A DNA stretch of 64,000 nucleotides from Acidobacteriota bacterium (GCA_039683095.1 JBDKSB010000012.1:404293-468292); one strand, 5' to 3'. Counted from the first letter of the stretch, positions 37,475 to 40,835 are shown. Program-made: numbers and translations. Notes: generated by a model from the letters alone, not told the origin.

Positions 37475-38863
37475 CTATTTCTTGATGGTCGAGATGAATT
37501 CCTCGACCTCCGGGATGCCGCCCTGGAAGATGAGGTAGCCGTTCTCCGGCTCGCGCTCCGTGATCTCCCCGGCGATCGGCGTCAGCATGATCCTGCGGAC
37601 CTCCTCTAGGTCCGTCGCCTTCCCCAGGGCCCAGGCCAGCTTGACATAGGCGACCTCGGGCAGCATGTTGGCCGCCGGGATGACCCCGAGCTCCATCATG
37701 TCGCGGCCCGTGTCGTAGACGTACATCTGGACGTAGCCCCAGAGCGTCTGGACGGTCATGAAGACGGCCACGCCCTTGTCCCGGGCCCGCTTGAGGGCGG
37801 GGTAGAGCGGCTTGTTGACGTGGCCGAGGCCGGTCCCGGCGATGACGATGCCGCGGTAGCCGTTGTCGACGAGCGAGTCGATGATGTCCGGCTTCATGTT
37901 CGGGTAGTAATAAACGATGGAGACCCGATCGTCGAACGAGGTGTCGATCCTGACGTTCCGGTCGGCCCGGCGGCGCTTGTAGTCGTGGCGCAGGGGCGTG
38001 ATCTTCTCGCGGCTGACCATGGCGATGGGGATGTCGCCGATCGTCCGGAAGGTCGAGCGGTAGCTCGAGTGCATCTTGCGGACTCGCGTTCCGCGGTGGA
38101 GGAGCCCGTACATGTCCGAGGTCGGCCCGAACATGCAGACCATGACCTCGGCGATGTCGCTCTCGGCCGCCGTCTTGACGCTGTGCATCAGGTTGAGCGC
38201 GGCGTCGGACGAGGGCCGGTCCGAGGAGCGCTGGGACCCGACCATGACGATGGGCACCGGCGGATCCTGGACCATGAACGACAGGATGGCCGCGGTGTGG
38301 TGCATGGTGTCCGTGCCGTGGCCGATGACGATGCCCTGGACGCCCTTCTCGATCTCGCGGCCGATGGCCCGGGCCGTGGCGATGTACTGCTCGGGGCCCA
38401 TGTTCTCGCTGAAGACGCCGAACAGCTTCTCGGTCTCGAGGTTGCAGATGTCGGCCAGCTCGGGCACCGAGCCGTAGAGCTCGCCCGGCGAGAAGGCCGG
38501 GATGACGGCGCCGGTCCGGTAGTCGAGCCGGCTGGCGATCGTGCCGCCGGTGCCGAGGAGCTTGACCCTGGGCTTGGCCGGATCGAAGGGGAAGTCCTTC
38601 TCGGGGATCTTGTAGTGGGCCTCCTTGCGGCCGCTGATCGTGATGGCCTCGACCGAGCGGGCCGCCAGGCCGATGTTGTAGCCCGAGCGGAGCTTGATGA
38701 CGATGTGGTTCGGGTCGGCCGTCTCCGAGCGGGGCAGGATGATGCCGGTGTATGTGCCGCGGGAGGTCCTGATCTCGACATCGCTCCAGACCAGGGCCCC
38801 GAAGTTCCGGAGCGTGGACAGGGCCTCGCCCCGGTAGCCTTTGTAGTCGTCGTTCGCGGCCAT
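37475..38863 (-). CDS. gatD: glutamyl-tRNA(Gln) amidotransferase subunit D (asparaginase-like)
   Basis: GatD supplies ammonia from glutamine or asparagine to GatE for conversion of Glu-tRNA(Gln) to Gln-tRNA(Gln). The 462-aa protein has a GatD-specific N-terminal domain (about 1-75) and an L-asparaginase-fold domain. The catalytic threonines and acid are in LGTGGTIAS and GHGTDTMHHTA, and SQRSSDRPSSD follows. The N-terminal extension separates it from ordinary asparaginases. The start at 38863 overlaps the gatE stop as TGATG; an alternative ATG at 38869 has poorer ribosome-site spacing. GatDE is known as the archaeal enzyme, so its presence here is remarkable. Confidence 0.9.
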   Translation of the reverse strand: MAANDDYKGYRGEALSTLRNFGALVWSDVEIRTSRGTYTGIILPRSETADPNHIVIKLRSGYNIGLAARSVEAITISGRKEAHYKIPEKDFPFDPAKPRVKLLGTGGTIASRLDYRTGAVIPAFSPGELYGSVPELADICNLETEKLFGVFSENMGPEQYIATARAIGREIEKGVQGIVIGHGTDTMHHTAAILSFMVQDPPVPIVMVGSQRSSDRPSSDAALNLMHSVKTAAESDIAEVMVCMFGPTSDMYGLLHRGTRVRKMHSSYRSTFRTIGDIPIAMVSREKITPLRHDYKRRRADRNVRIDTSFDDRVSIVYYYPNMKPDIIDSLVDNGYRGIVIAGTGLGHVNKPLYPALKRARDKGVAVFMTVQTLWGYVQMYVYDTGRDMMELGVIPAANMLPEVAYVKLAWALGKATDLEEVRRIMLTPIAGEITEREPENGYLIFQGGIPEVEEFISTIKK

Positions 38864-40791
38864 CAGCATGTCCCTTCGGCGGCGTCGGTGACCCGCTCGA
38901 GGACGGCCGCGCCTTCGACGCGGCCGCGCAGCGCGGTCATGACCAGGCCCATGAGGATGTGGGCCTTTCTTTCGGGGTTGTGGACCTTCATCGACCGCAG
39001 GACGGCGTTGGAGTCCGCGACCTGGGCGTAGATCTCCTCTTCGGTCGCCGGCCGGACCTCGCCTGTCTCCGGCAGGGCCCCGCCGGCGGCGACCCGCTCC
39101 ATCAGGGCGAAGACGCCGTCGCGCGAGATCCTCCGGTCCCGGAACAGGGCCAGGATCCGGCGCAGCGCGTCCTCGGTGAGCAGGGCCGTGTTGCGCCCGT
39201 TCGACCTGAGGCGCTTGGGGAACTGGACCAGGGCCACCGCGGCGGCGGTCGGGTCGAGACCCCAGTCCCTGACCAGGACCTCGAACAGGCCGGCCTCGCG
39301 GGAGACGGCCAGGGGCTCGACGACGTCGGCGGGCAGGCCGAGCTCCCGGTACCAGGCCTCGCGGGTCCAGATGGGAACGGGCAGGCCCCGGCGGATGCGC
39401 GCCAGGCGGTCTTCCGTGACCTGCTTGGGCGGCAGGTCGGTGTCCGGGTACATCCGGTCCGGGCCGGGCAGGATGCGCTCGAAGCCGTTGGTGCCGTCCC
39501 GTAGGGCCTGGCGCGTCTCGGAGGGGACGCCGATCACGGCCTCGCGGGCCCGGATGACGATCTCCTGGACCGCGGTCTTGACGTCCCCGGCCGGGCCCCA
39601 GACGACGACCACGGTGTCGTCCCCGGTCGCGCGAACGGCCTTGCGCACGGCCTCCCAGCGGGAGCTGGAGAGCGTTTCCGAGAGGCTGTCGGAATGGATG
39701 ATGTTGGGCAGCTTGGTCAGGCAGGCGACGACGCGGACACGGTCGGAGATCTCGCGGGAGAAGCGGGTGTTCGTCTGGGTCTGCCAGCTGAGCAGCTCGC
39801 GGAAGCCGCGCAGGACGACCGCCGAGGCCGCGGCGCCGCCGTCGATGGCGTCGCGGATGGGCTGGTAGCTCGTCTTCTGCAGGACCCGGGTGACGTCCTC
39901 CGACCCGGACTGGAACGTCTCGGAGGTGATGCCGCGGCCGCGGAGCTCCTCGCGCAGGCGGAGGAGGTTCCACTGGCGCATGGCCTCCTGATAGGTCAGG
40001 AGCGGGATGCGCGGGATGCGCGGCACGCCCTTGATCTCGATGCGGGTCCCGCCCCGGACGCTGACGTTGACGTCCTCGCGGGCGGCGCCCATGCCGGTCC
40101 GGACCTGGCCGGTGCTGCGGACGAGCCGGCGCAGGATCTGGGCTACCTCGGCCGCCTCCTGCGGCGTGCGCATGTCGGGGCCGGTCACGGTCTCGATGAG
40201 GGGCATGCCCAGGCGGTCGGTCAGGTAGACGCGGCGGTGGCCGACGTCGCTGACCTCGCGGCAGGCATCCTCCTCGAGGCCGAGCTGGACGATGGAGATG
40301 CGGCGGTCCCGGTAAGGGATCCATCCGTTGACGCCGACGATGGTCGTCCGCTGGAAGCCGGTCGGGATGCTGCCGTCGAGGTACTGCTTGCGGGCGATAT
40401 GGAGCTCGTCGACCAGGTTCAGGCTGTAGAGCATGGCGACGCCGAGGGCGATGTCGAGGGCCTGCTCGTCGATCATGAACGGCGGCGTGTCGTCCATCTC
40501 GTAGGTGCAGACGGTCTCCCGGTTGATCCGGTAGATGATCTCCTTCCTGGTCTTGAACTCCATCAGGGCCGTGCCGTCGTACTCGCCGAGCTCGGACAGG
40601 GTCGGCCGCATGTGGCGCAGGATCTCGGCGTCGTATCGGTCGCTGTAGCGGCCGGCCGGGCAGCGGCAGAACAGCTTCTTGGCCGTCAGGAGCTGCTGGT
40701 GGATCTCGAGGCCGGAGCGGAAGCCGATTTCGGCGTAGTCGGCTTCGGACATCTCGGCGAAGGGCTTGAACTGGTATCGATAATCGCTCAT
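38863..40791 (-). CDS. gatE: glutamyl-tRNA(Gln) amidotransferase subunit E
   Basis: GatE is the kinase/transamidase subunit that activates and amidates glutamate on tRNA(Gln). The 642-aa protein shows the GatB/GatE cradle (GLEIHQQLLTAKKLFCRCP near residue 28, LTDRLGMPLIETVTGPDM, KGVPRIPRIPLLTYQEA). Its length of about 640 residues leaves room for the AspRS-like insertion that distinguishes GatE from bacterial GatB (about 480). A helical YqeY-like tail follows. It starts from an extended -10 promoter and is followed immediately by gatD. No gatCAB genes are in the window. Confidence 0.92.
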   Translation of the reverse strand: MSDYRYQFKPFAEMSEADYAEIGFRSGLEIHQQLLTAKKLFCRCPAGRYSDRYDAEILRHMRPTLSELGEYDGTALMEFKTRKEIIYRINRETVCTYEMDDTPPFMIDEQALDIALGVAMLYSLNLVDELHIARKQYLDGSIPTGFQRTTIVGVNGWIPYRDRRISIVQLGLEEDACREVSDVGHRRVYLTDRLGMPLIETVTGPDMRTPQEAAEVAQILRRLVRSTGQVRTGMGAAREDVNVSVRGGTRIEIKGVPRIPRIPLLTYQEAMRQWNLLRLREELRGRGITSETFQSGSEDVTRVLQKTSYQPIRDAIDGGAAASAVVLRGFRELLSWQTQTNTRFSREISDRVRVVACLTKLPNIIHSDSLSETLSSSRWEAVRKAVRATGDDTVVVVWGPAGDVKTAVQEIVIRAREAVIGVPSETRQALRDGTNGFERILPGPDRMYPDTDLPPKQVTEDRLARIRRGLPVPIWTREAWYRELGLPADVVEPLAVSREAGLFEVLVRDWGLDPTAAAVALVQFPKRLRSNGRNTALLTEDALRRILALFRDRRISRDGVFALMERVAAGGALPETGEVRPATEEEIYAQVADSNAVLRSMKVHNPERKAHILMGLVMTALRGRVEGAAVLERVTDAAEGTC

Positions 40792-40826
40792 GAGTCCGGT
40801 CCGATCCGTTGCGGGTCAGAAGCGGC

Positions 40827-40835
40827 ATTATACCA
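40827..40835 (-). promoter_or_regulatory. extended -10 promoter of gatE-gatD
   Basis: On the minus strand TGGTATAAT (40835-40827) is an extended -10 with a perfect TATAAT. No -35 box is evident, which is usual for extended -10 promoters. The start would be near 40820, about 29 nt before the gatE ATG. Confidence 0.65.

Follow-up and report, generated by a model that had tools for sequence, protein, structure and literature searches.

A complete gene pair for an archaeal-type GatDE amidotransferase is present in an Acidobacteriota genome that has GlnRS and lacks GatCAB. The pair lies on the minus strand of a 64,000-nucleotide stretch of DNA (the window; GCA_039683095.1, JBDKSB010000012.1:404293-468292), and the positions of its features are counted from the first letter of the window. 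It is read tentatively, with a confidence somewhat short of even, as a functional bacterial GatDE that serves as an accessory enzyme on Glu-tRNA(Gln) beside GlnRS.

The gatED locus and its products

The gatE gene (40791..38863, minus strand) encodes a 642-aa Glu-tRNA(Gln) amidotransferase subunit E, the kinase/transamidase subunit, identified by NCBIfam, Pfam and AlphaFold. The gatD gene (38863..37475, minus strand) encodes a 462-aa subunit D, the asparaginase-like glutaminase, identified by NCBIfam and the GatD_N domain. gatE comes first and overlaps gatD by one base, so that the gatE stop and the gatD start codon together read TGATG, and the length of 462 aa is counted from the ATG within this overlap. 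The 1117-aa frame given by the ORF caller at 37475-40828 is the gatD frame extended back to an earlier start. The initial annotation had claimed a complete, overlapping pair behind an extended -10 promoter. The pair itself was confirmed, as both proteins passed the curated cut-offs and have intact catalytic motifs. The promoter claim stood in part: a perfect extended -10 element, TGGTATAAT, lies 5' of gatE (40835..40827, minus strand), but the two-hexamer sigma-70 scan gave zero sites in the gatED region, so the putative promoter is a direct sequence match only. The surroundings of the pair are clearly bacterial, as first described. Five further genomes of the genus also have gatE next to hppA, one of them on a 1.32-Mb contig, and their hppA is 89–92% identical over the part compared. 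A chimeric contig, which had been named as a possible objection, is therefore unlikely.

GatE scored 531 bits against NF003107 (cut-off 456) and 455 bits against TIGR00134 (cut-off 319.6), and the Pfam domains GatB_N (PF02934, 160 bits) and GatB_Yqey (PF02637, 29.8 bits, cut-off 27) were found in it. The best score of the GatB equivalog models on GatE was 129.7 bits, far under the cut-off of 338. The possibility that the protein is the GatB of GatCAB was ruled out by these scores and by a tree that places it outside GatB. GatD scored 519 bits against NF003217 (cut-off 310) and 517 bits against TIGR02153 (over the cut-off), and its domains are GatD_N (PF18195, 49.6 bits), PF00710 and PF17763. 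The window protein has the catalytic T, T-D and K motifs (GTGGTIAS, HGTDT and RKMH), as do 84 of 94 bacterial GatD; the exceptions are mostly truncated sequences. In GatD of Ignavibacteriota (loci L072, L073 and L076), HGTDV replaces HGTDT just after the catalytic T-D. MurT/GatD of Gram-positive cell walls is a separate protein family that acts on lipid II and has only the name GatD in common with this subunit. NCBI models would assign the names GatD and GatE, so the genes have probably been annotated yet not discussed, and no report of bacterial GatDE was found in the open-access literature.

The AlphaFold model of GatE (mean pLDDT 89) gave its best alignments with the archaeal GatDE structures 2d6f (Z 39) and 1zq1 (Z 35), and the closest solved structures to GatD are 1zq1_A and 2d6f_A. 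An AspRS-type insertion (GAD) domain is predicted at residues ~290–420 of GatE (39532..39924, minus strand), where the modelled fold resembles the AspRS insertion domain with Z 11–14; the Pfam sequence model gave 14.1 bits, under its cut-off of 23.4. The C-terminal tRNA-binding tail (GatB_Yqey, residues ~490–640; 38872..39324, minus strand) is assigned by Pfam and by the YqeY fold modelled for residues 580–638 (Z 8.7). On the modelled structure, the pair is filed as GatDE. It has the same subunits, domain order, catalytic residues, fold and gene adjacency as the archaeal GatDE of Pyrococcus abyssi (1zq1) and Methanothermobacter thermautotrophicus (2d6f). In contrast to the archaeal enzymes, bacterial GatE has diverged GAD and tail sequences and, in a tree with three archaeal sequences, forms a sister clade across long branches, and the host of the window pair has GlnRS and bacterial tRNA-Gln. 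GatE and the GatB of bacterial GatCAB have a common kinase domain, YqeY-type tail and chemistry, whereas GatE has the AspRS-type insertion and its partner is the asparaginase-like GatD rather than GatA and GatC.

Gln-tRNA machinery of the host genome

The source genome is 3.29 Mb in size and 95% complete, and absences were judged by family searches over the whole genome. No GatA was found (zero GatA-family matches), nor any GatB or YqeY, the sole GatB_Yqey match being the GatE of the window. The absence of GatCAB, which the initial annotation had raised as a possibility, was thus borne out. A full-length GlnRS is encoded at G000:C12:323801-325387 (724.7 bits, cut-off 425.8). Its active site is canonical, with all the Gln-recognition residues of the E. 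coli enzyme kept (R30, D66, Y211, H215, C229 and Q255), and these residues are likewise complete in GlnRS of other GatE carriers. A relaxed amino-acid pocket in GlnRS was considered and rejected, because the same canonical residues are present with and without GatE (36 GlnRS). The gene forms an operon with gltX (G000:C12 ~323771-326813; locus L044 1272-4314, minus strand) with an 8-base overlap. In two genomes, of which only one has GatE, a tRNA-Gln(CUG) gene lies less than about 400 bases from glnS (L054/L233 in G013 and L053/L228 in G351). AsnRS is also present in the source genome.

The genome has one GluRS, a bacterial protein of 433 aa in which the residue matching E. coli R350 is arginine. 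Arginine at the equivalent R358 of the T. thermophilus enzyme is taken here to mark a discriminating GluRS, and by this one-residue rule the GluRS of the genome is predicted to be of the discriminating type. The rule held in a control set of six GlnRS-less genomes of the phylum, which must mischarge tRNA-Gln: all six have a GluRS that carries this arginine and another that lacks it. The 433-aa GluRS lacks a zinc/CP1 stretch of about 45 residues found in E. coli GluRS, and the same short GluRS occurs in four other genomes (G072, G264, G304 and G351). Two tRNA-Gln genes were found (UUG and CUG), both with U1-A72 and G73, which is the bacterial type. The archaeal tRNA-Gln pattern is A1-U72 and A73, and archaeal GatDE reads A1-U72 and the D-loop (PMC9499178).

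It had been proposed that this lineage, if devoid of GatCAB, would make Gln-tRNA in the archaeal way, with corresponding consequences for its GluRS and tRNA(Gln). These expectations were not supported, since the cell has a direct route through GlnRS, its GluRS is predicted to be discriminating and its tRNA-Gln genes carry U1-A72 and G73. Because of the canonical GlnRS, the predicted type of the GluRS and the bacterial tRNA-Gln, GatDE is not the sole route to Gln-tRNA in this genome. The defining features of the archaeal Gln-tRNA pathway, namely no GlnRS, a non-discriminating GluRS and A1-U72/A73 tRNA-Gln, were tested and not found, and the window pair is therefore not a member of that pathway.

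Distribution of GatDE and its association with GlnRS

In the phylum, GatE was over the cut-off in 50 of 396 genomes and a clear GatE was present in 58 (about 14%), as tallied by hand from the result tables. In Planctomycetota, 13 of 149 genomes were over the cut-off and about 20 (13%) had a clear GatE. One planctomycete with GatDE and GatB and without GlnRS has a short frame (G406:C1:3598641-3598940) that resembles the C-terminal end of GlnRS only. A scan of GTDB contigs gave at least 572 GatE relatives. The 80 best of these belong to Bacteroidota, Ignavibacteriota, Planctomycetota, Calditrichota, Myxococcota, Fermentibacterota, Krumholzibacteriota, Gemmatimonadota, Zixiibacteriota and others. 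gatE was paired with gatD in 94 of the 111 loci examined, and the order was nearly always E-D. Clustering of the flanks of 80 loci gave no conserved third partner gene above 3–4 loci per family. The sole flank gene of metabolic interest was glnA, found beside gatED in three of the 80 loci and in three phyla: directly upstream of gatE in Krumholzibacteriota and Fermentibacterota (L087 and L123), and downstream of gatD in an Aminicenantes member (L116). This adjacency hints at a link to glutamine metabolism, though three loci in 80 could be chance.

Within the phylum, GlnRS was present in 54 of the 58 GatE genomes, two of the 54 as fragments. The four GatE genomes without GlnRS are 75–84% complete, and all GatE genomes that are at least 85% complete have GlnRS. 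About 149 genomes of the phylum have no GlnRS, and GatE occurs in only four of them. The association between GatE and GlnRS gave P = 1e-8 in the Fisher test and P = 5e-7 in a within-family exact test, both on hand tallies in which genomes inside families are non-independent. In the family of the window genome, GatE without GatB is found in the genera that have GlnRS, and GatB without GatE in the sister genus that lacks it. Across phyla, GlnRS was found in 45 of 50 GatE genomes (one a partial gene), which is weaker evidence because many of those phyla may carry GlnRS throughout. Three of the remaining five genomes have GatB, and neither enzyme was found in the other two, which may be incomplete. 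GatDE was never the sole Gln-tRNA route in any clearly complete genome examined.

Phylogeny and selection

In a tree rooted with GatB, 61 bacterial GatE formed one clade beside three archaeal GatE (SH-aLRT 99 and 98), one of the three being a seemingly frameshifted fragment from Natrinema (L260). The window protein fell on the GatE side of the root; a placement with GatB, which would have spoken against the initial annotation, was not seen. With three archaeal sequences only in the tree, bacterial GatE may have originated from within archaea. The L260 gene lies unannotated on a megaplasmid of Natrinema thermotolerans, and with its broken frame it is probably a pseudogene. GatE of the window clusters with that of Ignavibacteriota, Bacteroidota and Calditrichota, and GatE of Acidobacteriota takes about seven separate places in the tree, so the gene moves between bacteria. 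GlnRS of Aminicenantia forms a single clade of 10, in a reading of the tree that leaves out the G043 row, whereas GatE of Aminicenantia falls in several places. The two trees disagree, and GatDE therefore joined GlnRS lineages repeatedly. The conflict between the trees also led to the rejection of GatDE and GlnRS as one travelling cassette. GatDE is scattered over many phyla, and in the tree the bacterial GatE stand apart as one clade, a pattern that does not fit the single ancient transfer or lineage-specific replacement first suggested.

Within the genus, dN/dS was 0.11–0.18 for GatD and 0.10–0.20 for the catalytic domain of GatE, compared with 0.19–0.25 for GlnRS of the same genomes, and it was 0.33–0.55 for the GatE tail. 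gatED is under purifying selection. Between phyla, GatD is 65–85% identical and the E-D order is preserved. The mean identity of bacterial GatE was 66% in the catalytic domain, 37% in the GAD insert and 21% in the tail, which is the fastest-evolving part. The same three regions gave 58, 58 and 36% for two archaeal GatE, and four GatB taken for comparison gave 51% versus 28% in the tail. Part of the looseness of the GatE tail is normal for the fold. At 36 positions, nearly all in the catalytic domain, bacterial GatE is at least 95% conserved and unlike both archaeal sequences compared, while the core invariant residues are common to bacterial and archaeal GatE.

Possible roles of GatDE beside GlnRS

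In the established chemistry of GatDE, GatD hydrolyses glutamine, and GatE phosphorylates and amidates Glu-tRNA(Gln). In the proposed accessory role, GatD would free ammonia from glutamine or asparagine, and GatE would phosphorylate the tRNA-bound glutamyl group and then amidate it to give Gln-tRNA(Gln). The Glu-tRNA(Gln) could arise through GluRS mischarging tRNA-Gln or through GlnRS using glutamate, and GatDE would repair it, perhaps mainly under glutamine scarcity. GatDE might also act as a second route to Gln-tRNA, or as a supply when GlnRS is limited. Repair would be the likeliest of these roles, because GlnRS already makes Gln-tRNA(Gln). It is possible, with a little more reserve than for the window pair itself, that bacterial GatDE is a separate family of Glu-tRNA(Gln) repair enzymes beside GlnRS, working by chemical repair and not by hydrolysis; its hosts would then be the first bacteria with both Gln-tRNA routes. 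Bdellovibrio-type bacteria, with AsnRS, GatCAB and a non-discriminating AspRS, likewise have a direct synthetase and a transamidase together, although there the two routes lead to Asn-tRNA and the window pair concerns Gln (PMC4206432).

Several findings stand against the accessory role. A non-discriminating GluRS, the expected supplier of Glu-tRNA(Gln), was not seen in the genome and occurs in three of 23 GatE genomes. The U1-A72/G73 tRNA-Gln differs from the A1-U72 and D-loop preference of archaeal GatDE (PMC9499178), and the tRNA-binding tail of GatE is poorly conserved, though GatB tails are too. With no evident source of Glu-tRNA(Gln), which is the weak point of the repair reading, a changed substrate becomes a serious rival, even if an unlikely one overall. 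The enzyme would then act on another glutamyl- or aspartyl-tRNA or on a tRNA-independent acceptor, with a conserved core and drifting tRNA-recognition parts. The 36 bacteria-specific positions and the far lower conservation of GAD and tail are consistent with such a change. However, the GatE model retains the folds of both regions, the core invariant residues are those of archaeal GatE, and the association with GlnRS suggests a function in tRNA-Gln metabolism.

A rescue role for GatDE, acting on Glu-tRNA(Gln) from a non-discriminating GluRS retained from before the gain of GlnRS, is quite unlikely. Three genomes (G375, G312 and G242) do combine a GluRS without the arginine (G, Y, H) with GlnRS and GatDE. 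On the other side, 20 of the 23 GatE genomes surveyed have only arginine, in a survey that included second GluRS copies for part of the genomes, and the non-arginine copy in each of the six GlnRS-less controls is as the rule predicts. An archaeal arrangement, with GatDE in place of GatCAB as the chief source of Gln-tRNA, is improbable: the absence of GatCAB and the intact GatDE would agree with it, but the canonical GlnRS here and in nearly all GatE genomes of the phylum, the predicted discriminating GluRS and the bacterial tRNA-Gln do not. The patchy distribution would suit a leftover of transfer that is neutral or in decay, yet this is very improbable for a pair with an intact co-transcribed arrangement across phyla, such high GatD identity and low dN/dS. 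A tRNA-dependent supply of glutamine in cells without glutamine synthetase is hardly credible: its whole case is an analogy with Bdellovibrio, where Asn synthesis is tRNA-dependent (PMC4206432), and the genome has two glutamine synthetase genes and nearly all GatE relatives have at least one.

Implications

GatDE has been described in reviews as exclusively archaeal, and the absence of GlnRS from archaea has been explained by the co-evolution of GatDE with archaeal tRNA-Gln (PMC9499178, PMC8762117). A bacterial GatDE that is widespread, nearly always accompanied by GlnRS and, if active, working on bacterial tRNA-Gln breaks both the archaea-only and the co-evolution statements. It also bears on the inference of GatDE in the last common ancestor, and makes the repair of mischarged Glu-tRNA(Gln) by cells a testable question.
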